A DNA stretch of 64,000 bases from Thiocapsa bogorovii. Lineage in GTDB: Bacteria > Pseudomonadota > Gammaproteobacteria > Chromatiales > Chromatiaceae. The notes beneath the pieces were generated by a model. The model was given only the letters and a program-made list of their open reading frames with translations, ran no database searches and was not told the origin of the DNA. The stretch covers positions 4,523,501 through 4,587,500 of the forward strand of contig NZ_CP089309.1 of NCBI RefSeq assembly GCF_021228795.1, given 5' to 3'. Numbering within the stretch: the stretch's first letter is position 1; each line of letters begins with the position of its first letter. Shown in pieces: positions 3,243-35,948 of this stretch. Made by a program: the position numbers and the translations under genes.

Positions 3243-4052
3243 TTGGCGAGAATTATTGTGATCACCTCGGGTAAGGGCGGGGTCGGCAAAACGACCACGT
3301 CCGCCGCGTTGGCCATGGGGCTGGCCCAGCGCGGTCATCGCACGGTCGTCATCGATTTCGATGTGGGCCTGCGCAACCTGGATCTCATCATGGGTTGCGA
3401 GCGGCGTGTCGTCTACGATTTCGTCAATGTCATCAATCAGGAGGCCAACCTCAACCAGGCCCTGATTCGCGACAAGCGTTGCGACAACCTCTATGTGCTG
3501 CCGGCCTCTCAGACACGCGACAAGGATGCACTCACCAAGGAGGGCGTCGGGCGGGTGCTCGAGGAGCTCGCCCACGGATACGATTTTATCGTCTGCGACT
3601 CGCCGGCCGGCATCGAGCACGGCGCGACCATGGCCATGTATTACGCCGACGATGCCATCGTGGTGACCAATCCCGAGGTTTCCTCGGTGCGGGACTCCGA
3701 CCGCATGTTGGGTATCCTCTCGAGCAAATCGCGTCGGGCGGAGTCAAACGACGAGCCGATCCGCGAGTTTCTCTTGCTGACCCGCTACGATCCGGTGCGT
3801 GTCGAGAAGGGCGAGATGTTGAGTGTTGATGACGTGCAGGAGATCTTGTCGCTGACCTTGCTCGGCGTTATCCCGGAGTCGAAATCCGTCTTGACCGCAT
3901 CAAACTCCGGCGTACCTGTGGTCCTCGATCGGGAGAGCGATGCCGGCAAGGCCTATGCCGATACGGTTGCTCGTTATCTGGGCGACGAGGTGCCGCACCG
4001 TTTTCTCCAAGTGGAGAAGAAGGGCTTCCTGAAGCGCTTTTTCAGAGGCTGA
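3243..4052 (+). CDS. minD: Septum site-determining ATPase MinD
   Basis: A 269-residue membrane-associated ATPase that recruits MinC and is released by MinE. The deviant Walker A motif GKGGVGKTT is at residues 10-18. DFDVGLRNLDLIMGCERR and CDSPAGIEHGA follow, and the C-terminal amphipathic membrane helix ends GFLKRFFRG. I place the start at TTG 3243 because this gives the universal MARIIVITSGKGG N-terminus and an ideal GGAGG eight bases upstream. A frame opening at TTG 3228 would add five residues and has no ribosome binding site. It is followed by minE after three bases. Confidence 0.96.
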   Translation: MARIIVITSGKGGVGKTTTSAALAMGLAQRGHRTVVIDFDVGLRNLDLIMGCERRVVYDFVNVINQEANLNQALIRDKRCDNLYVLPASQTRDKDALTKEGVGRVLEELAHGYDFIVCDSPAGIEHGATMAMYYADDAIVVTNPEVSSVRDSDRMLGILSSKSRRAESNDEPIREFLLLTRYDPVRVEKGEMLSVDDVQEILSLTLLGVIPESKSVLTASNSGVPVVLDRESDAGKAYADTVARYLGDEVPHRFLQVEKKGFLKRFFRG

Positions 4053-4055
4053 CCT

Positions 4056-4325
4056 ATGGGCTTACTCGACTACTTCCGCTCCTCGCGACCGAAGGGCTCT
4101 GCAAGTGTAGCCAAGGAGCGGCTGCAGATCCTGGTGGCCCACGATCGTACGCAGCGTGGCCGTCCTTCCTATCTCCCCAAACTGCAGCAGGAGATCCTCG
4201 AGGTCATCCGCAAGTATGTGGAGGTCGACATGAACGCCGTCTCCGTCAAATACGAGCAGGAGGACAGCCACGAGGTCCTCGAGCTGAACATCGTTCTGCC
4301 GGACACGGTTCAGGGACGGATCTAA
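4056..4325 (+). CDS. minE: Cell division topological specificity factor MinE
   Basis: An 89-residue protein, the usual length for MinE. It stimulates MinD ATPase activity and drives Min oscillation. The N-terminal MGLLDYFRS helix, the AKERLQILVAHDR MinD-interacting segment and the C-terminal topological domain (YLPKLQQEILEVIRKYV) are all present. It completes the minCDE operon, starting three bases after minD stops. Downstream, about 500 bases hold only repeat elements. Confidence 0.97.
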   Translation: MGLLDYFRSSRPKGSASVAKERLQILVAHDRTQRGRPSYLPKLQQEILEVIRKYVEVDMNAVSVKYEQEDSHEVLELNIVLPDTVQGRI

Positions 4326-4351
4326 GGGCGGGGCTGGCCATGGTTCGCGGT

Positions 4352-4466
4352 AGGATGGGTCCGGCGCAAGCGAAACCTCTACTGCAAACCGCAGCGTTGC
4401 CGGGTTTCGGTCCGATGCCCTTGGCGCGGGCCGGACAGGTTTCGCTGGCGCTCTACATCCTCGTCT
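4352..4466. repeat. Palindromic intergenic repeat downstream of minE
   Basis: Arms GGCGCAAGCGAAACCT and AGGTTTCGCTGGCGCT face each other, flanked by GTAGGATG and CTACATCC. This resembles the repeat at 2237-2316 in design but differs in sequence. It belongs to a broad class of palindromic intergenic repeats. Confidence 0.6.
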
Positions 4467-4493
4467 TTCGGTTTTTTGGCTCGTTCCTGAACC

Positions 4494-4849
4494 AAACCGC
4501 GTCCAGAGCGACAGGCGTCGTTTTCGTGTTGTATTCGGCTTCGGGGACGTCGCCGCCAGGGGTGGAGACGCGGTTTATGCCGAGCGCACCTGGGTTTTCC
4601 GCCGCATTGCACGCCCCGCGCACGCCGGGCCGGTGTCGCGCCTACTCGCCTTGGAATCCGCTACGCCTCGTCGGCGCGCCTTGGCCCGCCGCGCGCGGGA
4701 CGCACTCTGCCGAGCGAAAAACCCACGCGCGCTCGGTATAAAATTCTATATTTTTTGGAATCTTAAACCGCGCCAGCTCAAACAATCGTCGAGTCTGCCA
4801 AGATCGACCCCATCCGAAAACATCACGCACCGCGCTGTGCGCGGTTTAA
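4494..4849. repeat. Composite inverted-repeat element, copy 2, with nested insertion
   Basis: Module A (4494-4577) has inverted ends AAACCGCGTC and GACGCGGTTT. Module B (4763-4849) has ends TTAAACCGCGC and GCGCGGTTTAA. The spacing is enlarged by a separate ~157-bp inverted-repeat element at 4580-4736. Without it the copy would be about 199 bp, like the others. The right end of module B contains the stop codon of the minus-strand L,D-transpeptidase gene. Confidence 0.85.
4580..4736. repeat. Second inverted-repeat element nested inside composite copy 2
   Basis: The left end CCGAGCGCACCTGGGTTTTC and the complement of the right end, CCGAGCGCGCGTGGGTTTTT, match over 23 bases with only three or four differences. 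It sits precisely at the junction between module A and the AT-rich linker. No open frame inside is convincing, so it looks like a small non-coding element inserted into an older repeat. Confidence 0.65.
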
Positions 4850-5448
4850 GGCAGGATCTTGATCGGCGTCCCGTCGCGCACCATCGACCAGATCTCGTCG
4901 ATCTCGTGGTTCTGCACGGCGATGCAGCCCTGTGTCCAGTCGCGGTTGGCATATTGTTGGCGCAGTGCTTCGGATCGGACGTAGTTCGGGAGACCGTGGA
5001 TCATGATCATCCCGCCCGGGCTGGAGTAACCGAGTGAGCGGCTGACGAGCTTGTCGCGCTCGTTCGGGTAGGAGATGTGGATCGACTTGTAGAAATTGCT
5101 GTTCGGGTTGCGCCAGTTGAGGAAATAGTCGCCGATCGGGGTGCGCTCGTCGCCTTCGCGAAACTTATGCCCGTCCGGCGCGCCGCCGAGTGCGATCCGG
5201 TACTCGCGGATCACCCGTCCGTTGCTATGCAGCTCCAGCTTGCGTTGCGACTTCTTCACAACGACCTTGTCGGCGTGGTTTGAGTCGACCGTCGCCATCT
5301 TCGACGTGCTGCCACAGCCGACAAGTCCCAAAGCGCCTGCAACGGCGAGCGCCGTCAGCAGGTATCGGATCCGATGCGCGCGGTGCTCGGGTCGGCGGAC
5401 GGGATGCTCGTCGATGGCGTTCATGGGGTGTTTCGCGTGGGTGTGCAT
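4846..5448 (-). CDS. L,D-transpeptidase (YkuD-fold) lipoprotein
   Basis: A 200-residue putative cell-wall enzyme. The YkuD catalytic signature is visible: His151-Gly152 in MIMIHGLPN and Cys175 in DWTQGCIAV. Such enzymes cross-link peptidoglycan through meso-diaminopimelate or attach lipoproteins to it. A hydrophobic segment ends in the lipobox LVGC with Cys45, predicting a periplasmic lipoprotein. The 27 basic residues before that segment are unusually long, so an internal start at Met9 is possible. The stop codon lies inside the GCGGTTTAA end of the repeat element at 4763-4849. Which L,D-transpeptidase activity it has cannot be told from sequence. Confidence 0.85.
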   Translation of the reverse strand: MHTHAKHPMNAIDEHPVRRPEHRAHRIRYLLTALAVAGALGLVGCGSTSKMATVDSNHADKVVVKKSQRKLELHSNGRVIREYRIALGGAPDGHKFREGDERTPIGDYFLNWRNPNSNFYKSIHISYPNERDKLVSRSLGYSSPGGMIMIHGLPNYVRSEALRQQYANRDWTQGCIAVQNHEIDEIWSMVRDGTPIKILP

Positions 5449-5597
5449 GGGTTTGATCCGGTGTCTGGAGGGTAGCCACGGCGTCGGCCGTGCTCATCAG
5501 CAACACGCGAAAGTGTAGGTAACCTTATGACAAAACGCCATCTTGTTTAGCGATTTTTCGTTCTGGAAATCCCGAGCCGAGCCACCGGAATCGTCGG

Positions 5598-17116: not shown

Positions 17117-17192
17117 GCGCCCTTAGCTCAGTTGGTAGAGCATCTGACTTTTAATCAGGTGGTCGCAGGTTCGAGCCCTGCAGGGCGCACCA
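17117..17192 (+). tRNA. tRNA-Lys (anticodon TTT)
   Basis: A 76-base cloverleaf. The acceptor stem GCGCCCT pairs with AGGGCGC and the encoded 3' ACCA is present. The D-arm is AGCTCAGTTGGTAGAGC, the anticodon arm CTGACTTTTAATCAG has anticodon TTT, and the T-arm contains GGTTCGAGCCC. It follows cpoB, as in many gammaproteobacteria, and is followed within nine bases by an intrinsic terminator. Confidence 0.97.
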
Positions 17193-26129: not shown

Positions 26130-26654
26130 CTAAACATCCTTCTGTTTCAGCAGCGCTTTGAGACGTTCGACCTCGGCGAGGGCAGCTTCCTTGGCTTGGA
26201 GTGCGGCTTCCTTGGCCCGTCGCTCTGCTTCCTTTGCAGCCCGCGCCTTGTCGAGCTCACGTTGGATCCCCCGCTGCTGACGCAGGAATTCCTGACGCGC
26301 CTGATAGGCGTGATAGGCGCGCTCTTTCTCGGAGAAGGCGTTCAAGGTACTCATGGCTTGCCTCATCTCGGCGGTGTGCATCCAGTCGGGCAGCGTAGCC
26401 TCATTGAAGCGCTCGGCTTCCTTGAAGAATTTTAGCCAACGTTCACGCTCGATTTCGACCTGTGCGGACGCAAATTTGTCGGAAAAGGCCTCGCGCTCGT
26501 TGTACGGATTGAGGGTCTCGACCTCTGTGATCGGAGCGGGCAGATCGTCGACCAGCACGGCGTTAAGAAAGTGGATCAACAGGGGGCGGTTGTCCTCGGA
26601 GCCGAGCAGGGCCTTGAAGACGCAGTCGACTCTGGGATCAATGGGATGGCGCAT
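26130..26654 (-). pseudogene. Rpn/PD-(D/E)XK transposase-family protein, internally deleted
   Basis: A 174-residue open frame. Residues 1-55 (MRHPIDPRVDCVFKALLGSE, then LLIHFLNAVL, ITEVETLNPYNERE) are the standard N-terminus of the Rpn/PDDEXK transposase family. At about residue 65 the sequence jumps directly to the family's late region (RWLKFFKEAERFNEATLPDW...) and the C-terminal Lys/Glu/Ala coiled coil. Roughly 100 or more residues expected in between, including the PD-(D/E)XK nuclease residues, are missing. The frame is preserved, so a shortened protein may be made, but nuclease activity is not expected. Confidence 0.75.
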
Positions 26655-27107
26655 GGGGCGAGTCTAAGGCGCCGAACCCGTGTTTACAAATCGTGTCCGC
26701 TCGGTTCGTCTCCCAACCCCGGGATCGTCGACTTGCAGTCGACTCGGCGGCCGTCAGGTCGGCGCCGTGTGCAGATGACCACGCTGCGACCGATTGCGCC
26801 CGGCCAAACCCAGTACGCATACCGCACCCCATGATCCTACCGCCCGTTCCGGATCGCATCAATTGACTGCACCCGAGGACGAAGTTTGGCACAATGCCCA
26901 TCGACCCAAGCCGAGCCGGCGGCTGTTCAAGAGCGGATGGAACTGCGATGGCCCCGAAAACGAAAACCCTGTGGCCACCCGATCATGGCCTGTCTCCATA
27001 TCGTGCATCGCACGGCGGCAGCGAAGGCGCGGGCGACGGGTTCAGCGCGTCCTGCTGCATCGGCGCCCGGATCATGACGGCTTCACCGGATGCATCCCGG
27101 ATCCCCG
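26655..27107. other. Region without a recognisable gene
   Basis: About 450 bases between the deleted Rpn-family gene and the truncated helicase gene. Open frames exist on the plus strand (for example from 26894), but none has family-like sequence. It may contain decayed remains of the defence island's 5' side. Confidence 0.5.
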
Positions 27108-27566
27108 GTGCCGAACCTGACGCACATCCCGCTCAAGCTCACCTACCGCACTGGTCGCGACGACCTGGTGCACGACTTCTTCGTCCCCTGTCTCGAAACC
27201 GCAGTGCTCTACCGCCGCGCGGCGGGCTACTTCACCAGCGCCGGGCTCGCCCTCGCTGCCCGCGGAGTCGCAAGTCTGGCGCTTCGGCGCGGACACATGC
27301 GCCTGGTCGTCTCCCCGCACCTGGGGCCCGACGACTGCGCTGCCCTGGAGCGTGCCCAAGAGAACCCCGCGGCCGTTCTACGCACCATCGCCGCCCGCAG
27401 CCTGGCGGAGATCGAAGACGCTCTAATCAAGGACCGCCTCAACGCCTTGGCCTGGCTCGCCGCTTCCGGACTGTTGGAGATCAAGCTCGCCATGCGGTTA
27501 TCCACCAGCGGTTATGCCTGCGGAGTCGATGCATTGAGGGCAGTGCGAACGCCTCGTCTGACATGA
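27108..27566 (+). pseudogene. N-terminal remnant of a PLD-domain DEAD/DEAH helicase
   Basis: Residues from HIPLKLTYRTGRDDLVHDFF through LYRRAAGYFTSAGLALAARG, HMRLVVSPHLGPDD and ASGLLEIKLAMR match the N-terminal phospholipase-D-like part of large helicases common in defence islands. After LEIKLAMR the similarity ends and a short unrelated tail runs to a stop. The rest of the PLD domain and the whole helicase are absent. dndC begins 100 bases later, so a deletion fused this stump to the operon's edge. The start could be ATG 27090 or GTG 27108. Confidence 0.65.
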
Positions 27567-27666: not shown

Positions 27667-29016
27667 ATGCACGCCCCAATGAACTTAAGATCGGATCGGG
27701 TTCTGGTCGACGAGCACGTCGAGGAAACCGAGGACTTACTTCATGGGCACTATTTCGCCGATGAGCGCCCGTGGGTGGTCGCATACTCCGGCGGAAAGGA
27801 CTCGACGCTGGTCCTTCAGTTGGTCTACGACTTGGTCCTTAAGCTCGGCGCAGGGGCGCAGAAGCCGATATACGTCGTCGCGTCCGACACGCGTGTCGAA
27901 GCACCCAACGTCGAGGAGTATCTCGCCGATCGCCTGGCGCGGTTAGCCGGACATGCGCGAGCCAACGGTATTCCCGTGTATGTGCACCGGGTTCAGCCTG
28001 CGCCTGAGCAGAGCTTTTGGGGAAATCTGATCGGCAAGGGTTACCCGTCGCCGACGCGCTGGTTCCGGTGGTGCACGACCAAGATGAAGATCAAACCCTC
28101 ACGGGCCGTGATCGACGGCATTGTGCGGGACCACGGCGGAGTCGTTCTCCTCCTGGGAACCCGTTTGGATGAAAGCGCTAGCCGCGCACATCGGATGGAA
28201 AGTCGGGCCACCAACAGCCGCGGCCTAAATCCGCACGGCGAGATCCCGGATGCCCTGGTGATGACACCGATCGCGGACTGGTCGACGGACCAGGTTTGGG
28301 AGTATCTCTTTACCCATAACCCGCCGCCCTGGGGCGGTACCCACGACTTCATGCTCGACCTCTACCGGCAGGCGAGCGGCGGCGAGTGCCCGGTGGTCTT
28401 GGACCTCAACACGCCCTCGTGCGGGGGAAGCCGATTCGGGTGCTGGACCTGCACCGTGGTCAAAGAGGACAAGTCGATGCGCGGGTTCATCGACTCGGGC
28501 GCGGCCTGGATGCAGCCCCTGAATGAATTCCGCAACTGGCTCAAAGCGATTCGTGAAGACCACAGCAAGCGCGACGGCATCCGTCGCAACGAGTCCATCG
28601 GCCCCGGCCCCTTCAGTTCGGAAACCCGCAAACTGATCCTGCGGCGACTCTTGGAACTTGAGAACACCGTCGGTCGCCGACTGATCGAAGACGCAGAGAT
28701 CGCTTACATCCAGCAACAGTGGACCGAGAAGTTCGACGTCACTGACAGCGCATTGGCCATCGCCAGAGAGTACGGAAGGGAGGTTGGAGCCTTGAGCCTC
28801 ACGTCAGAAGATCTATCCAGGGACCTCGCGCTCATCGAGGATTTGGCCCCCAGGTTCGAGGTCCAGAGCATCTGGGCCACGGACCTTTATAGCCTGGTCA
28901 CCGAGCGTTACCTGTCCCTCGACAGCCCCAGCAGTCATCAGCAGCTCCTGGACGATGTGATCAAGGTCGTTGAGAACGCCGTCCGGCAGGCCGACAGGAC
29001 CGAGCCGGCCCCATGA
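27667..29016 (+). CDS. dndC: DNA phosphorothioation system sulfurtransferase DndC
   Basis: A 449-residue PP-loop ATPase/PAPS-reductase-like protein. The pyrophosphatase loop AYSGGKDSTLVLQLVY has SGGKDS at residues 41-46. Cys136 in RWCTTKMKIKP and Cys252, Cys259 and Cys262 in CGGSRFGCWTC are candidate iron-sulfur ligands, as known for DndC. LLLGTRLDESASRAHRM is the DndC signature. The protein activates and delivers sulfur during replacement of a backbone oxygen by sulfur. GAGGA precedes ATG 27667. The TGA overlaps the dndD ATG by four bases. Confidence 0.93.
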   Translation: MHAPMNLRSDRVLVDEHVEETEDLLHGHYFADERPWVVAYSGGKDSTLVLQLVYDLVLKLGAGAQKPIYVVASDTRVEAPNVEEYLADRLARLAGHARANGIPVYVHRVQPAPEQSFWGNLIGKGYPSPTRWFRWCTTKMKIKPSRAVIDGIVRDHGGVVLLLGTRLDESASRAHRMESRATNSRGLNPHGEIPDALVMTPIADWSTDQVWEYLFTHNPPPWGGTHDFMLDLYRQASGGECPVVLDLNTPSCGGSRFGCWTCTVVKEDKSMRGFIDSGAAWMQPLNEFRNWLKAIREDHSKRDGIRRNESIGPGPFSSETRKLILRRLLELENTVGRRLIEDAEIAYIQQQWTEKFDVTDSALAIAREYGREVGALSLTSEDLSRDLALIEDLAPRFEVQSIWATDLYSLVTERYLSLDSPSSHQQLLDDVIKVVENAVRQADRTEPAP

Positions 29017-31058
29017 TCTTCGAGAACATCCGACTCACCAACCTGTTTTCCTATTACGGGGATCAGGACATCGACCTGAGCGCCCCCGAGCCCGGCCGCA
29101 ACGTCTGCCTGATCATGGGCCGCAACGGCTTCGGCAAGACCAGCCTGCTCAACGGACTTAAGCTCCTCTTTACCGGCGTCCATTACGAGCCGTTGCGGCG
29201 CGCGGTCCAGCGCTCGCGTATGCCCACGGTCAAGCAATACGTGGTGGGTGCCGGTGACGACTGGTGGGGCATCATGAACCGACGGGCGCGCGGCGAGGGT
29301 AAGACCCGCTGCGCTGTTCGACTGATCTGGGGCGAGGACAGCGGCCAGGTCACTGCGGAGCGGAGCTGGCGCATTGAGGGTGGGAGTTGGGACGGCGAGG
29401 AGTCTCTGACCGTCACGACCGCCGCCGAGACCTTCACGGACGAGGCGGCTCAGGAGTTTCTCGACCGTCGCTTGCCACGGGATTACGTGTATTTTTTCCT
29501 GTTCGACGGCGAGCAGATCCAGGAGTTGGCGGAGGCCAACCGGGACGTACAGCAGCGCCAGATGGAGCGTCTCCTAGGGATCGGTGCCATCGAGGCGCTG
29601 CGGGCGACGCTAACCCAAGCCATAAGCCGCTGGGAGCATAACGACCTGGACCCGCAAGCCCGGGCAGACCTGGAGCGTCTTGAGGGGGAAGCCCGCGGGA
29701 TCGAGGCTGAACTTGCGGCCCTGGACGGGAAGCGGGCCAACCTGGAAGAGGAGATCGAGGGCGACACGGACGCGCTGCGCCGCATCCGCCGCCGCATCGA
29801 AGGACTGAGTAGCTTCGTCCACCGCCACGACGAGGCGCAGCTCAAAGAGACCCGTGAACGCATTCAGGCCCAGCGGGCCGAGGCGCTGGACCGGATCTCG
29901 GCCCAGATCCCGCGGGACATCGCGCTCCTGGTCAATCCGTCCCTGATCGGGGGGGCACTGGAACGGCTGGACCGAGTCCTTGGCAGCGACGCCAATTCCC
30001 GGACCCGAGTCTTGGAATCACTTCTAGAAGTTTTGCCAGGGCGACTTTTCGATCTGCCCGAGTTCCCGGACCCCGACATCCGCGACGGTCAGCGGGCCTA
30101 TTATCGCTACAAGTTGGTCCGTCTCCTGGAGCAAGAGGCGGAAGCGACCGGCGATACCATGGACCCTTCTTTCGCGCCAGATCCACAAGCGGCCTCCGCC
30201 TCCCGGGACCAGCTCGCCCCCTACGCCCAAGCCGACGCACTTCGCTCGGCCCGGGCGGAGGATCTGCGCCGCCTGCAAGGATTCACCGCCGAGTTGCGTC
30301 AGTTGGAGGCCGATTTGCTGAACGTGGGGGCGCTCTCTGACGAGGAGCGGGCGCGCTATGACCGGTATGTGGCGGAGCGAGATGAGTTGGAGCGTGGCCT
30401 GGACAGCAAGAAGAAACGGAACACAGAAATCGAGTCGGAATCCGCCGGCCTGCAACGGAGGCTAGCCGAGGCCCGCAGCCGTGCGGAGCAGACCAAGACC
30501 AAGATCGGTAAGAATCAAGTCACGGAGGACAAGATCGCCACTGCCCGCCGCTTGGGAGGTCTATTCGCTGACCTCAAGAGTGCTCGCAAGCAGGCTCAAC
30601 GGGAGGAATTGGAGGCGGCAATCAACCGCCACTTTCGGGTGCTGATGACCTCCCACCACCTCATCGACCAAGTAGCGGTGGACGAGGACTTCGGGCTGCG
30701 CTACCTGGATCGGGATGGACGGCCAATCGGCATGGGTAGCCTATCTGCTGGCATGAAACAGCTTATGGCAACCGCACTGTTGTGGGCGCTCAGCGAGGTC
30801 TCCGGAAAGCAGGTTCCATTGGTGGTCGACACCCCCCTGGCCCGTATCGACCTGGCCCACCAAGAGGCCATCCTACGCCACTACTACCCCAATGCCGCGG
30901 CCCAGGTCATCGTCTTGCCCACGGACGCGGAACTCGATGCCCGCAAACTCCAACTCATTGCCGGGCATGTCTACCGTGCCTACCGCCTGACCAATCCCGA
31001 CGGCGAGCACACGGTTCCCGAACCGGTGACTATGGCCGAGCTGATCCAGGGGATTTGA
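29013..31058 (+). CDS. dndD: DNA phosphorothioation ATPase DndD (SMC-like)
   Basis: A 681-residue SMC/Rad50-type ATPase. Walker A GRNGFGKTS starts at residue 36. FFLFDGEQIQELAE is a DndD hallmark. Coiled coils fill residues ~210-280 and ~410-500. The ABC signature SLSAGMKQLMATALLWAL (~575) and Walker B PLVVDTPLARIDLAHQ (~603) lie at the C-terminus. DndD is thought to remodel DNA or provide energy for DndC/E. It is translationally coupled to dndC (ATGA) and followed three bases later by the dndE-ftsK fusion. Length is typical. Confidence 0.93.
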   Translation: MIFENIRLTNLFSYYGDQDIDLSAPEPGRNVCLIMGRNGFGKTSLLNGLKLLFTGVHYEPLRRAVQRSRMPTVKQYVVGAGDDWWGIMNRRARGEGKTRCAVRLIWGEDSGQVTAERSWRIEGGSWDGEESLTVTTAAETFTDEAAQEFLDRRLPRDYVYFFLFDGEQIQELAEANRDVQQRQMERLLGIGAIEALRATLTQAISRWEHNDLDPQARADLERLEGEARGIEAELAALDGKRANLEEEIEGDTDALRRIRRRIEGLSSFVHRHDEAQLKETRERIQAQRAEALDRISAQIPRDIALLVNPSLIGGALERLDRVLGSDANSRTRVLESLLEVLPGRLFDLPEFPDPDIRDGQRAYYRYKLVRLLEQEAEATGDTMDPSFAPDPQAASASRDQLAPYAQADALRSARAEDLRRLQGFTAELRQLEADLLNVGALSDEERARYDRYVAERDELERGLDSKKKRNTEIESESAGLQRRLAEARSRAEQTKTKIGKNQVTEDKIATARRLGGLFADLKSARKQAQREELEAAINRHFRVLMTSHHLIDQVAVDEDFGLRYLDRDGRPIGMGSLSAGMKQLMATALLWALSEVSGKQVPLVVDTPLARIDLAHQEAILRHYYPNAAAQVIVLPTDAELDARKLQLIAGHVYRAYRLTNPDGEHTVPEPVTMAELIQGI

Positions 31059-31061
31059 CCC

Positions 31062-32591
31062 ATGGCTGATCTCTATACCGATGCCCGCGACGAGCAGACC
31101 ATTGAGGACGTCCTCCTTCATGGGCTGGGCACACCGCGCGCCCCGAAACTGCGCGTCCTGCGCATTGCCCTGGCACGGTCGCTACAGATCCCCACCCCGC
31201 CCGCGGAGGATCTGGACGGCAGCGGCTTGGGCGGCAGCGAATATGCCCTGGCCCGGATCACGGGCGCTGGGCTCCCGGCGGACGAGGAGGGCCGTCAGGA
31301 CTATGATCTGGCGATGCGCGCGCTGCTGAGCGTCTACCACGGCGAGGACATGTTCCAAGGGGATGAGTCGGAGCGGCGCTACCGTAATTACCTGCAACGC
31401 CACGTCCGCCGGGGCTTACAGGAAATTCGCACCACCTGGCGCCCGGGCCACGACTTCCACGGTTTCCTTTACCACGAGCTGTTTGTTGGTGCGGTGCCCC
31501 GTCCGCCGCGCGCGGACCTAGGGCAGGAGATCCTCGCTGGCCTTCGCGAGATCGGCGTCTCGGCCCAGATCCGCGGTGTCGAAGATGGGCCGCGTATCAG
31601 CCGCTACCGGGTTTATCTGGACGATGTCAATCACTACGACCGGGTCAAGCGAGGTCTCGATAAGCTCGGTCTTCACCTGGGTCTGTCCACGCGCCAAGGC
31701 ATACTCCTGCAAGAAGACGAGGACCGGGAGCGCGAGGCCCGGGTGCTGGCCCTGGACGTGCCTCGCCCGCGGGAGACCTGGCACACGGTGCCCGGCACCC
31801 GGCTCCGGGATTGGGCAACACAGGCGACGGATGTGCCGATCCTTACGGTCTGGCCCGGCGTGGACGTACTGGGGGCGCCGGTGCACTTCGACTTGGCCGC
31901 AGCGCCTCACCTGCTGGTGGGCGGGACGACGGGCAGCGGCAAGAGCGTCTGTTTGCACGCCCTGCTTCTGTCCCTCCTCTGGCGGCTGGGGCCGCAGGAT
32001 CTTCATCTCACTCTGATCGACCCAAAACGGGTCGAACTCGCCCACTACGCGGCCTTCCCACACTTGATGGGCGGGAAGCCCCTGGAGAATATAGGCGAAA
32101 TCTTGGAGGCGCTGGATGACTTGGTGGATGAAATGGAGCGCAGGACTGTTCTTTTGCGCCAGCACGGGGTCGCGAACCTTGCCGAAGGTCGCGAGCAGGG
32201 ACGAATCGACCTGCCCTACGTGGTCGTGGTGGTCGAGGAAATGGCGGATCTGCTGTTCCAGTCCCGCGAGGTCGAGTCGCCCCTGATACGCCTGACCCAG
32301 AAGGCGCGGGCCGCCGGCATTCATCTGGTACTCGCCACCCAGCGCCCGGACGCCGAGACCTTTAGCGGCCTTTTGCGCAGCAACGTACCGGGTCGTATCG
32401 CGCTTTCCGTCCGTACCGCTGCCGAGTCGAAGATCATCCTCGACGAAACCGGTGCAGAAAAACTGCTCGGCGCCGGCGATATGCTGCTGCGGCCCCAGGC
32501 CGGCGCCGCGGCCCGCCGCGCCCATGGAGTGAGGGTTGGAAGCGACGACATCCGGATTTGTCTGCAAAGCGTCCGCGGGAGGACCCAATGA
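31062..32591 (+). CDS. DndE-like domain fused to FtsK/HerA-type DNA translocase
   Basis: A 509-residue protein. Residues ~28-126 align by eye with DndE: RIALARSLQIPTPP, a YDLAMRALL helix and the YLQRHVRRGLQEI motif, where DndE has an H-x-x-RG segment before its last helix. Residues ~150-230 resemble the FtsK alpha domain (GPRISRYRVYLDD). The motor follows, with Walker A GGTTGSGKSV at 287-296, LTLIDPKRVEL, Walker B-like VVVVVEEMADLL at 387-398 and LATQRPD at 424. The usual Walker B Asp is Glu. No C-terminal gamma (KOPS-reading) domain is present. I infer that it completes the DndCDE core and adds a translocase. Confidence 0.8.
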   Translation: MADLYTDARDEQTIEDVLLHGLGTPRAPKLRVLRIALARSLQIPTPPAEDLDGSGLGGSEYALARITGAGLPADEEGRQDYDLAMRALLSVYHGEDMFQGDESERRYRNYLQRHVRRGLQEIRTTWRPGHDFHGFLYHELFVGAVPRPPRADLGQEILAGLREIGVSAQIRGVEDGPRISRYRVYLDDVNHYDRVKRGLDKLGLHLGLSTRQGILLQEDEDREREARVLALDVPRPRETWHTVPGTRLRDWATQATDVPILTVWPGVDVLGAPVHFDLAAAPHLLVGGTTGSGKSVCLHALLLSLLWRLGPQDLHLTLIDPKRVELAHYAAFPHLMGGKPLENIGEILEALDDLVDEMERRTVLLRQHGVANLAEGREQGRIDLPYVVVVVEEMADLLFQSREVESPLIRLTQKARAAGIHLVLATQRPDAETFSGLLRSNVPGRIALSVRTAAESKIILDETGAEKLLGAGDMLLRPQAGAAARRAHGVRVGSDDIRICLQSVRGRTQ

Positions 32592-33733
32592 GCGACATGA
32601 CCGTTTACGAGTTTCAACCACTCTGGTTAACCCTGGACCGGGTCGGTCCCTTTCAGGGCACGCCCTACGAGATTGACTTCACCGACGAGCAGGACCGCCC
32701 CTGCAACATCTTCCTTTTGATGTCAGAGAATGGACGGGGCAAGACAACGGTGCTGGATTGTATGGCACTGCTGATGCGCCAACTGGGCGAGGCCGATCCA
32801 CATCGGTTCGGGCAGGAGGACGTGGATGAGGGTCAGGGGCGGGTCCAGCTTGATGTGCTGACCCGGGTCTATTGGCAGGGTAGCGACCGTCGCATCGTTC
32901 TTTCACTGCTGGCAGGCGCCATTGGCGAGGAGACCTTCCTCAAGGTCTGGGATGACTCGGATCTCAAGCGTTACGGGGCGCAGGACTGGCATCGAACCGG
33001 ATTCAGGCAACGGGCGCGTGGGCGCCTGGTGGAGGTCGATCCTCGGGACGATCTTGTTCAAGACCTTCGGCATACGTTGATCGACGCAACCCGGCTAGCA
33101 CCGGAGGGCTACGCTAACTCTACTTTGAGTCTGCCTACGGCCCTGCTTTTCCCCGCCTACCGGGATATTCCGCCAGTGCTTGGGCTCGATGAACGGCCGA
33201 TAATCCAGCCCGAACACTGGGGTTACCGTTCAGCTCAGGAGTTTGCCGCCCATGGGACGCACTGGACCGCTTCTTTGGATAACCTGCTCGTCTGGCTGAT
33301 GTGGTTGAACAATGGCAGCTATGACAGCGCGGTGAAGACGGTGAATGAAACGGTTTTCGGGGCGTCTCCGGATAAGTTCCTGGCAGCTGAGATTCGCCGG
33401 GTTCCGCCCGAGGCGGTCGTCCATAGCGGGGGGCAAACCCACCGTCTGGACCGGCTCTCCAGTGGAGAAAAGAACCTAGTCCAGCTCTTTCTGCGTATCG
33501 GCGCCCACGGTACCCGCAATACCTGGATTCTGGTGGACGAGCTTGATGTCCACCTGCATGTACGCTGGCAACATAAGGCTCTGAATCTGATGAAGGCCCA
33601 GGTCCGTCAGCAGCCTGGCACAACGGTCATCGCAGCAACTCACTCGGTCGAGATTCTTGAGGCTTTCCCGATGGATATCCGCGAGGAAGGCTTGATAAAG
33701 GGCGGCTGGATAATCGAGGAAGACCTGCGCTAG
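32588..33733 (+). CDS. ABC/OLD-like AAA ATPase (AriA-like)
   Basis: A 381-residue ATPase. The P-loop is MSENGRGKTTVLD at residues 45-57; its first Gly is Ser46. The C-terminal half has the ABC signature LSSGEKNLVQLF, Walker B ILVDELDVHLHVRW and the H-loop VIAATHSVEIL, a set typical of OLD, Septu and PARIS AriA ATPases. The start at ATG 32588 overlaps the previous TGA and follows GGAGG. With the TOPRIM protein encoded 16 bases downstream it forms a two-gene effector-like module. Role in sensing and activating the partner is inferred from PARIS. Confidence 0.82.
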   Translation: MSDMTVYEFQPLWLTLDRVGPFQGTPYEIDFTDEQDRPCNIFLLMSENGRGKTTVLDCMALLMRQLGEADPHRFGQEDVDEGQGRVQLDVLTRVYWQGSDRRIVLSLLAGAIGEETFLKVWDDSDLKRYGAQDWHRTGFRQRARGRLVEVDPRDDLVQDLRHTLIDATRLAPEGYANSTLSLPTALLFPAYRDIPPVLGLDERPIIQPEHWGYRSAQEFAAHGTHWTASLDNLLVWLMWLNNGSYDSAVKTVNETVFGASPDKFLAAEIRRVPPEAVVHSGGQTHRLDRLSSGEKNLVQLFLRIGAHGTRNTWILVDELDVHLHVRWQHKALNLMKAQVRQQPGTTVIAATHSVEILEAFPMDIREEGLIKGGWIIEEDLR

Positions 33734-33749
33734 CAGGCAAGGCGGGGGC

Positions 33750-34628
33750 ATGAGCGGATTCAAGATGAAGCAGTCGGATCAGTTGGTCCTCAAGCAGCGC
33801 GGCGGGGCGGTGGTCTTTCTGGAGTCTGAGGAGGACTTCCAGATTGTCGCCAAGCGTTGGTTTTTTGATGAAGGTCAAGAGGTCTTCTTCCAGCCCGCCG
33901 ATACTTACGAACAGGGGACTGGTGGAGGCGGCTGCAAAGCTGTCATTGATCTGGTCGAGCAGGCTAGGGTTAATGGGATTAACGCATTCGGCCTTGTGGA
34001 TCGAGACGTGCTCCTAAATGATCACAAATGGCCCCTGTGGTGGCAGGACCAGGATGTGGAGTTTCTCTCGGCTCGCCCCTACGGCGACAACATTCGTGTC
34101 CTGTTGCGTTGGGAGCTTGAGAACTACCTGCTGGACCCGGACGCCATGGCTACGGTGGCCAACGACACGAGGATGATTTCGACGCACACGGTGGACTCGG
34201 CAACGGCATTCTGCCTGAATTGCGCCGACGAGTTAAAAGATAGGTCCGCCACAACCGTCGCTGCTATTGCAGCCAATGTGCCCTCCCCGGCGGTCGGATT
34301 CGGGTGCAACCCGATGCGTATTGGCGCAGCCCTCACAGGTGAATTACAGCAGTTTCTGGCGAAGCAAGGGGTTACCAACGCTGCGGCCGTTCTCCTGGAT
34401 CATCGTAAACGCATCGATCGATTTGATGCTCCCACGGCTCCCGCGTTAAATCGTTGGGAGCGCCTCGTCCGCATGCTGGACGGCAAGGCCGCTCTCAAAT
34501 ACGTTAGCCATCGAACCGGAATCCGCTTCGATGAAAGACGTGCAGAAATAGCTCGTCGGATGCGCGAGCAAGGCGCTGTTCCGCCCGAGTTGCGTGGCTA
34601 CGTCGAGGAATTCAAGAACGCGGCATAA
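33750..34628 (+). CDS. TOPRIM/DUF4435-like protein (AriB-like)
   Basis: A 292-residue protein. TOPRIM-like acidic residues are visible: Glu25 in VVFLESEEDF and Asp84/Asp86 in FGLVDRDVL, with GGGCKAVIDLVEQA between them. RWELENYLLDPDAM follows, a common DUF4435 feature. Proteins of this class act as the toxin/nuclease partner of an ABC-type ATPase, as AriB does in PARIS. DNA or tRNA cleavage is therefore possible but unproven here. It is the last gene of the dnd operon. Its DNA looks less GC-rich than the flanking housekeeping genes, consistent with transfer. Confidence 0.75.
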   Translation: MSGFKMKQSDQLVLKQRGGAVVFLESEEDFQIVAKRWFFDEGQEVFFQPADTYEQGTGGGGCKAVIDLVEQARVNGINAFGLVDRDVLLNDHKWPLWWQDQDVEFLSARPYGDNIRVLLRWELENYLLDPDAMATVANDTRMISTHTVDSATAFCLNCADELKDRSATTVAAIAANVPSPAVGFGCNPMRIGAALTGELQQFLAKQGVTNAAAVLLDHRKRIDRFDAPTAPALNRWERLVRMLDGKAALKYVSHRTGIRFDERRAEIARRMREQGAVPPELRGYVEEFKNAA

Positions 34629-35009: not shown

Positions 35010-35948
35010 GTGGCGACCGAGTCAGCCGGTGCACTGCCCCTGCGGCGCGTCAACCGGACTCGGACCATTCATGGGTCATTGGCGATCGAGGGCAACACCC
35101 TGAGTGAGCAGCAGATCACCGCGATCCTGGAAGGCAAGCCTGTGATTGCGCCGCCTCGCGAGATCCAAGAGGTCAGGAACGCGCTCCTGGCCTACGAGCA
35201 TTTTCCGTCTTGGAATCCGGCGAGCGAGGAGGATCTGCTCGTGGCCCATGCCCTTCTGATGAGGGGTTTGGTGGGGCATCCAGGTGCCTATCGACATCGG
35301 GGTGTCGGCGTGATGTCGGGCGATCAGGTTGTTCACATGGCGCCACCGGCCGATCGCGTGGCGATCTTGATGGGGGAGCTTCTGGCCTGGCTGAGCAGGG
35401 CTGAGGTCCATCCGCTCATCGCCAGTTGTGTCTTTCACTACGAGTTTGAGTTTATCCACCCGTTCGAAGACGGTAACGGACGGCTGGGCCGCTTATGGCA
35501 GACCGTGATCTTGAGCCGGTGGAATCGGTTGTTCGCCGACCTGCCCGTCGAGAGCATCATTCATGCGCATCAACAGGACTACTACCGAGCGCTAGCTGAC
35601 AGCAACGATGAGGGTGCGTCGACCTTGTTCGTCGAGTTCATGCTCGGGGTGATTCGGGAGGCAGTGATGTCCGCCTCGACCGAACAAGGCACCGAACAAG
35701 CTACCGAACAAGTTCTGAACCTGTTGGCGCGGATGGGTGAGGGCGACTACTCGGCCAAGACGCTGATGGCGCTCATGGGGTTGTCGCATCGGCCGACCTT
35801 TCTCTACGACTATTTGCACCCTGCGCTTGACGGTGGATGGCTTGAGCTGACACGTCCGGAGACACCGAAAAGCCCCAAGCAGCGGTATCGGTTGACGGCC
35901 TCGGGGCGGCAGCTTCTATTGGAGCTCGGGCTGCGTGACGGAGGGTGA
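35010..35948 (+). CDS. Fic-family AMPylase-like protein, N-terminus frameshifted
   Basis: A 312-residue Fic protein. The catalytic motif HPFEDGNGRLGRL has its His at residue 150. An inhibitory-helix-like SLAIEGNTLSEQQ lies at 23-35, and a C-terminal winged-helix region (~235-305) follows a TEQGTEQATEQ linker. Fic enzymes usually transfer AMP to target hydroxyls. The visible start is GTG 35010. Just upstream, 34930-34995 encodes PPFVITLDIVADVAEI, the expected family N-terminus, in another reading frame. The gene therefore carries an indel near 34990-34998 or is expressed from the internal GTG. Confidence 0.83.
   Translation: MATESAGALPLRRVNRTRTIHGSLAIEGNTLSEQQITAILEGKPVIAPPREIQEVRNALLAYEHFPSWNPASEEDLLVAHALLMRGLVGHPGAYRHRGVGVMSGDQVVHMAPPADRVAILMGELLAWLSRAEVHPLIASCVFHYEFEFIHPFEDGNGRLGRLWQTVILSRWNRLFADLPVESIIHAHQQDYYRALADSNDEGASTLFVEFMLGVIREAVMSASTEQGTEQATEQVLNLLARMGEGDYSAKTLMALMGLSHRPTFLYDYLHPALDGGWLELTRPETPKSPKQRYRLTASGRQLLLELGLRDGG

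Follow-up and report, generated by a model that had tools for sequence, protein, structure and literature searches.

A phosphorothioation-type operon with a PARIS-like ATPase-TOPRIM pair in Thiocapsa bogorovii: a widespread candidate antiphage cassette

In the chromosome of Thiocapsa bogorovii, three genes of the phosphorothioate (PT) DNA modification type are followed directly by an ABC ATPase gene and a TOPRIM gene, which raises the question whether the five genes form one system or two neighbouring ones. The window analyzed here comprises 64,000 nt (contig NZ_CP089309.1, positions 4,523,501 to 4,587,500). An earlier note on this DNA had described dndC, dndD, a dndE:ftsK fusion and the ATPase and TOPRIM genes as one operon (Table 1). 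Its open reading frame (ORF) positions, plus strand, order and junctions were all confirmed, and the families it had named (DndC, DndD, DndE-FtsK, ABC ATPase and a DUF4435-like TOPRIM protein) are supported by hidden Markov model searches with NCBIfam, PADLOC and Pfam. The genes dndC and dndD share an ATGA overlap (29013-29016), and a 3-base gap separates dndD from dndE:ftsK. A second ATGA overlap (32588-32591) connects the fusion with the ATPase gene, counted from its ATG start at 32588 (the longest ORF opens at a TTG, 32558), and 16 bases lie between the ATPase and TOPRIM genes. The best reading is a PT-based defence with an abortive effector similar to that of PARIS (phage anti-restriction-induced system), as predicted from the genes.

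A collection of species genomes was scanned with the N-terminal part of DndE:FtsK, resulting in 62 loci, 10 of which were judged to coincide with contigs of an earlier locus set (loci and genomes are referred to by L and G numbers). The ATPase and TOPRIM genes are encoded directly 3' and in this order in 55 of the 62 loci, including some cut or frameshifted pairs (e.g. L073, L102). At two further loci (L046, L058) the contig ends after the ATPase gene. Two Thiomargarita loci show another order with the TOPRIM gene before dndE: the whole pair is located between dndD and an unfused dndE in L093 (521-5083), and DndE is fused to a region without Pfam match in L091 (2-2614). The dndD gene adjoins in 56/62 loci and a DndC match is found in 52/62; in all of the ten DndC-less loci but L057, the first gene found lies no more than about 400 bases from the contig start. 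The hosts comprise gamma-, beta- and alphaproteobacteria, Magnetococcales, Mariprofundaceae, Desulfobacterales, Desulfobulbaceae and one member of the Bryobacterales. The same gene order, proposed as a check in the earlier note, is thus found in other genomes, and the five-gene cassette is widely shared rather than a local accident or a unique hybrid. The proposal that the effector of one defence type had been joined to the modification core of another stands in so far as the unit is conserved; the uniqueness of the hybrid does not. In Methylobacter luteus (L090, 6478-8945) two ORFs, IS21-like by eye, break the start of dndE:ftsK with the downstream pair remaining open. In Burkholderia glumae an IS5 transposase gene borders the Dnd genes, with no annotated pair.

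The search was also performed with the TOPRIM protein. Within the window's order, 15 matches were obtained in 14 of the 210 genomes, that of the window among them, and 12 of the 14 loci other than the window's have dndD and dndE:ftsK beside the pair. One Chromatiaceae genome (G145) harbors two strongly diverged cassettes (L024 and L037), with TOPRIM proteins 87% and 27% identical to that of the window. Among 369 genomes of the class, one further credible match (L129 in G241) and one doubtful match were obtained. Besides the window's own match, 398 genomes of the phylum yielded 10 strong matches and 3 weak ones. Nine of the 10 strong matches are located beside dnd genes, L125 being the exception; all 3 weak matches represent distant pairs that lack dnd genes. 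Since eight of those nine coincide with loci already found via the DndE profile, they are the same evidence seen from the other side and not new.

As a specificity control, 204 genomes of the window's order (a set that may differ slightly from the 210) were searched for DndD at E<=1e-30. Of the resulting 30 loci, 14 are followed by DndE:FtsK, and 13 of these 14, window included, carry the pair. It is found in 0/16 of the DndD loci without DndE:FtsK, within the approximately 1.5 kb examined and with several loci cut by contig ends; of the respective genomes, only G195 has a TOPRIM match, namely a dnd-decayed pair (L025) about 10 kb away. For the association between the pair and DndE:FtsK, Fisher p is 1.2e-7 (kinship ignored). 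These counts speak against the last two genes being part of an unrelated island, an outcome for which the earlier note had allowed, and, within the stretches examined, the 16 loci likewise rule out the pair as a partner of DndD systems in general.

The phylogenies of the five genes were compared for 44 non-redundant complete sets (56 before removal of duplicates, window included), among them L097-L101 with a displaced DndC. Tree-distance correlations are 0.83-0.94 when the pair is compared with the Dnd genes and 0.79-0.90 among the Dnd genes themselves (DndD-TOPRIM 0.935, DndC-TOPRIM 0.925, DndC-DndD 0.903), and the maximum among 500 permutations was 0.28. TOPRIM proteins of Accumulibacter (Betaproteobacteria) are 66% (L042) and 64% (L045) identical to the window's, and those from the window's own family 60% (L028, L029) and 65% (L026, L027). 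The Accumulibacter proteins are therefore as near as, or nearer than, the same-family ones, and the unit seems to travel whole; judged from these sequences, host descent alone does not appear to explain the distribution of the cassette. DNA similarity to the closest relative, L024, covers window positions 27691-34627 and hence the five genes without flanking DNA. Relative to L024, each of the five genes has a ratio of nonsynonymous to synonymous substitution rates (dN/dS) in the range 0.05-0.15, indicating purifying selection. With the longest ORF starts, the median gaps are -1 base between dndE:ftsK and the ATPase gene and 3 bases between the ATPase and TOPRIM genes. Kept in dozens of distantly related bacteria, the cassette looks like one working system and not like two neighbours.

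DndC scores 365.8 bits against the NCBIfam cut-off of 290.4 (TIGR03183). Its SGGKDS P-loop (residues 41-46) and four cysteines (C136, C252, C259, C262), the putative holders of an Fe-S cluster, are kept in 44/44 complete non-redundant sets, window included. The C-terminal ~80 residues of the protein probably represent a fused copy of a small protein (Sp-DndD) that is elsewhere encoded by a separate ORF before dndD. A profile built from 31 fused C-termini matches such separate ORFs in L098 (8.5e-9), L097 (4.5e-8) and L099 (7e-6), and a Mesorhizobium ORF at the same place, annotated as 'DNA modification system-associated small protein', matches Pfam Sp-DndD above its cut-off; the window's C-terminal piece alone gave no Pfam match. 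DndC consists of two ORFs in L050, L059, L063, L065, L067, L071 and L090, with a catalytic part of 377-393 residues (359 in L071) and a small protein of about 70 residues before dndD. To look for a sixth conserved gene, flanking ORFs (553 from 58 loci) were compared. A small ORF recurring there proved to encode the C-terminal part of DndC as a separate protein. A cysteine desulfurase recurs only in L097-L102, with fragments in L033 and L053; further recurrent ORFs occur in 3-6 loci each. The dndA-like gene adjoins dndC in L097-L101 and on the Mesorhizobium plasmid pM0123d, and the L099 copy scores as DndA (2e-120) and slightly better as SspA (3e-124). No cysteine desulfurase (DndA/IscS) is found in the window's cassette, to which this statement is limited, no IscS search of the genome having been made.

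The DndD score of 256.4 bits lies just above the cut-off of 245.85. Its best PADLOC model is PbeC (8.4e-106), the best DndD model reaching 1.8e-82; the protein lacks a CxC hook, its sole cysteines being C32 and C100. In the fusion protein, a DndE domain (residues ~32-124) is followed by an FtsK/HerA translocase domain (~255-429) with a Walker A lysine, K294, kept in 44/44 sets. The DndE part remains below the Pfam threshold in the window (20.5 bits versus a cut-off of 25) and exceeds it in the relatives L099 (N-terminal part, 29.0 bits) and L093 (25.2); a sequence search of the PDB with this part retrieved no DndE structure. By its PADLOC match to SspH (1.7e-49), the FtsK domain appears to resemble the SspH/DndH motor. 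The earlier description of the pair as standing 'in place of DndFGH' is therefore only partly right: dndF, dndG and dndH were not found beside the core among the flanking ORFs searched at this locus (the PbeA remnant 5' and the Fic gene 3'), the fusion itself contains a DndH-like motor, and genome-wide absence is not established. Alphaproteobacterial loci have the order DndA-DndC-DndD1-DndE1-small protein-DndD2-DndE2:FtsK-ATPase-TOPRIM, to which plasmid pM0123d of Mesorhizobium amorphae adds a divergent gene annotated as 'DGQHR protein'. In the compact form seen in the window, a single DndD/DndE pair would serve in both roles, and the small protein would be part of DndC.

The Walker A lysine of the ATPase (K52) is kept in 44/44 sets, and the protein has an LSSGEK-type signature. 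Its AlphaFold2 model (mean predicted local distance difference test, pLDDT, of 91) contains no long coiled coil. A plasmid search with the ATPase gave 5 records, 2 of them across most of its length (Rhizobium, Mesorhizobium). The TOPRIM protein of the window alone has no Pfam match at 0.001, no match in PHROGs and none in the plasmid search. Its family is more informative: among 58 members, DUF4435 matches 34 (E<=1, best 7e-12) and PADLOC AriB matches 45 (E<=0.01, best 7e-15), so that the AriB-like assignment, weak from the single sequence, becomes firm once the relatives are scored. The acidic residues E25, D29 and D84 are present in 44/44 sets and D86 in 39/44. In a Foldseek search with the AlphaFold2 model (pLDDT 94), the top two PDB matches are AriB (8ux9_A, probability 1.00; 8v46_D, 0.98), followed by a third at 0.12. 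The TOPRIM/DUF4435-like assignment of the earlier note is thus well supported.

From gene content, active-site conservation, co-inheritance and the AriB-like fold of the model, we consider it probable that the five genes constitute one antiphage system in which a PT module is combined with a PARIS-like effector module. A cysteine desulfurase encoded elsewhere would feed sulfur to DndC, which together with DndD and the DndE domain would place marks on host DNA and scan it; movement of the complex along the DNA would be driven by the FtsK motor of the DndE fusion. The ATPase would keep the AriB-like TOPRIM nuclease inactive until the Dnd complex, acting as sensor or guarded target, meets foreign DNA or a phage inhibitor; the ATPase would then let the nuclease go, which would most likely cut tRNA and thereby stop the infected cell. 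Four elements of this scheme are inferred: PT chemistry in the host, control of the nuclease by the ATPase, the nature of the trigger and tRNA as the target. A bolder version is put forward tentatively as a possibility: the PT-scanning DndD-DndE:FtsK machine could directly license an ATPase-caged, tRNA-cutting TOPRIM toxin. A backbone mark would then be read out as translation arrest, and the PT machinery would be an abortive-infection sensor, not a restriction shield.

Several observations weigh against the single-system interpretation or its PARIS-like part. The earlier note had likened the ATPase-TOPRIM pair to AriA-AriB, and for the ATPase this similarity is not specific: Foldseek ranks PtuA first (3.7e-15) and AriA 49th (1.4e-7), so that the modelled fold appears nearer to PtuA. 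A sequence-profile search of the PDB does return AriA as the top match, over ~90 C-terminal residues only. For the TOPRIM model, the similarity to AriB is modest (E 2.7e-3, TM-scores 0.38-0.45), and PDB searches retrieved no AriB with the protein sequence and nothing at E<=10 with the family profile. The resemblance of the pair to PARIS thus lies in the effector, and the ATPase can be placed only broadly with OLD/PtuA. No DndB match was obtained in a single-family search of the window genome, and the tree comparison sets gene against gene without a control for host phylogeny. The core also occurs without the pair in 3/62 loci (L064, L076, L082), although at least 1.6 kb follows. At L163 (G017, 3761-5589), DndC-DndD-DndE:FtsK is followed by a DndB-like gene (PF14072 4.4e-31) and a 176-residue ORF, with no pair. 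Together with three pairs without an intact core, these loci indicate that the modules can live apart. The 176-residue ORF resembles GIY-YIG by eye and has no Pfam match; it may occupy an exchangeable effector slot where the ATPase-TOPRIM pair would sit.

The three pairs bear on two other explanations. L025 has an intact pair with dnd remnants only (largely deleted), L034 an intact pair with no dnd gene in the 20 kb examined, and L125 an intact pair with none found in the stretch examined; in the ATPase tree, all three are nested within the clade linked to dnd genes. In a classical restriction scheme, the pair would be a DNA endonuclease acting on PT-lacking DNA, like DndFGH and DndI, with PT protecting the host. 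PT-dependent DNA nickases are established partners of DndBCDE (PMC11662687), OLD and Gabija have DNA-cutting TOPRIM nucleases (PMC12409363), and an FtsK motor would suit DNA scanning. However, a pair that cuts unmarked DNA should harm a host lacking dnd genes, and the pair of L034 looks selected (dN/dS 0.10 and 0.12 against a dnd-bearing relative, a pairwise estimate that partly predates the dnd loss). The fold is also AriB-like, an OLD TOPRIM chain appearing at Foldseek rank 15 (probability 0.16), and partial site occupancy, reported as 10-15% of PT sites in one Salmonella strain (PMC11662687), is awkward for plain restriction. Intact pairs without a working dnd set fit an effector silenced by its own ATPase and disfavour a cutter of any unmarked DNA, an argument based on three cases with absence judged within the stretches examined. 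Loss of the dnd genes would equally be tolerated by a pair that is activated only through DndD/DndE:FtsK. Overall, classical restriction seems unlikely.

The same pairs, outgroup pairs such as L129 (at a contig start without dnd genes; PADLOC AriA 8e-25, PtuA 5e-25, AriB 1e-18), the pair-less cores and the general clustering of defence genes would suit two independent systems, the Dnd core and a PARIS-like pair, brought together only by a common island. This is made quite improbable by genes that overlap or nearly touch, by matching tree distances, by DNA similarity confined to the genes themselves, by the lack of the pair at the ordinary DndD loci and by the Thiomargarita pair inserted between dndD and dndE. 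Very doubtful, too, is the idea that DndD-DndE:FtsK is a Pbe-like sensor rather than a modifier, with PT made elsewhere or DndC serving the sensor only. The PbeC score of DndD points in this direction, as does the separate first Dnd set of alphaproteobacteria, next to which the second DndD/DndE pair looks like a sensing unit. The compact loci, in contrast, have a DndC with intact catalytic residues adjoining dndD, by the ATGA overlap in the window, and a single-family search of the window genome returned a single DndC match.

Table 1 Features of the cassette and its surroundings in the window
Feature	Position	Strand	Evidence or remark
dndC, PT sulfurtransferase	27667-29016	+	TIGR03183 3.2e-109
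Sp-DndD-like C-terminal ~80 residues of DndC	28774-29013	+	profile of 31 fused C-termini
dndD, SMC/Rad50-like ABC ATPase of DndD/PbeC type	29013-31058	+	TIGR03185 256.4 bits
dndE:ftsK fusion	31062-32591	+	PF01580 1.9e-44; PF08870 6e-4
ariA-like ABC ATPase of OLD/PtuA class, 381 aa	32588-33733	+	PADLOC PtuA 3e-15, AriA 1.5e-13
ariB-like TOPRIM (DUF4435) effector	33750-34628	+	PADLOC AriB 2e-5; Foldseek AriB
PbeA (HKD-helicase) remnant, outside cassette	27090-27566	+	PADLOC PbeA 1.7e-37, profile 2-130/672
Fic-family protein, 3' of cassette	35010-35948		PF02661, PADLOC SoFic
PD-(D/E)XK transposase-type protein, short, perhaps fragment	26130-26654	-	PF12784 4e-16
tRNA-Lys(TTT) gene	17117-17192		within window

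About 100 bases 5' of dndC, a remnant corresponding to the N-terminal ~130 of 672 residues of PbeA is encoded. BLASTP with this fragment gave no match in the ORFs of the 62 DndE-profile loci or of L024-L037; it may be what is left of an earlier PT-linked module. Promoter and terminator scans at the locus showed no excess over shuffled sequences, and repeats are limited to weak two-copy matches. The tRNA-Lys(TTT) gene corresponds to the target of the PARIS AriB, tRNA-Lys(UUU), and its presence in the window is probably a coincidence.

The DndE:FtsK fusion is already published: it occurs in a subset of PT systems, with a DndD-related ABC ATPase beside DndE fused to a HerA/FtsK domain, as in the window, and its FtsK clade also contains some DndH proteins (Rakesh, Aravind and Krishnan 2024, PMC10853773). 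The partners named in that text are HKD, HNH, REase, URI, HEPN and PIN proteins and not an ATPase-TOPRIM pair; the word 'toprim' occurs twice in it, AriA and DUF4435 not at all. No description of the five-gene operon was found in the open-licence literature surveyed, outside of which lie Krishnan 2020 and the supplements of PMC10853773, so an earlier sighting is possible.

The cassette is compact and occurs in several classes of Pseudomonadota as well as in some Desulfobacterota. With PT machinery welded to a PARIS-like effector, it would make it possible to test directly if PT complexes are sensors, and its natural half-deletions provide ready-made genetics. Among known systems, the methylation-associated defence system (MADS) likewise joins DNA modification to an ABC-TOPRIM effector; it uses methylation, not PT, and has other further genes. 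PADLOC MADS models match the window's FtsK (mad8, 7e-26) and ATPase (mad3, 2e-9). An ABC-TOPRIM link is described for MADS (PMC12409363). DndCDEA-PbeABCD (PMC6459918) also couples a PT core to a dedicated antiviral module, and the DndD of the window is near the PbeC models. Its effector is an HKD-helicase, however, and PbeABCD combines PbeA with a CxC ATPase and its own DndE (PMC10853773), whereas the window retains only the 130-residue PbeA remnant and a DndD without CxC. IscS-DndBCDE-DndI (PMC11662687) again pairs a PT core with a dedicated module, but the effector is an HNH nickase. In PARIS, a hexamer of the ATPase cages AriB, which is freed by Ocr-like phage triggers and cuts tRNA-Lys (PMC12409363). 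The adjacent ABC ATPase and DUF4435 TOPRIM genes and the best fold match of the TOPRIM protein are shared with PARIS; the ATPase of the window is closer to PtuA and embedded with a PT core. Loci of BREX (bacteriophage exclusion) contain PARIS-like modules, proposed as a backup effector, in which OLD-ABC and TOPRIM proteins have similarly been recruited by a modification-based defence (PMC12839542). There they are one of several add-ons, whereas the Dnd-linked pair is near-constant and holds a fixed place in the operon.

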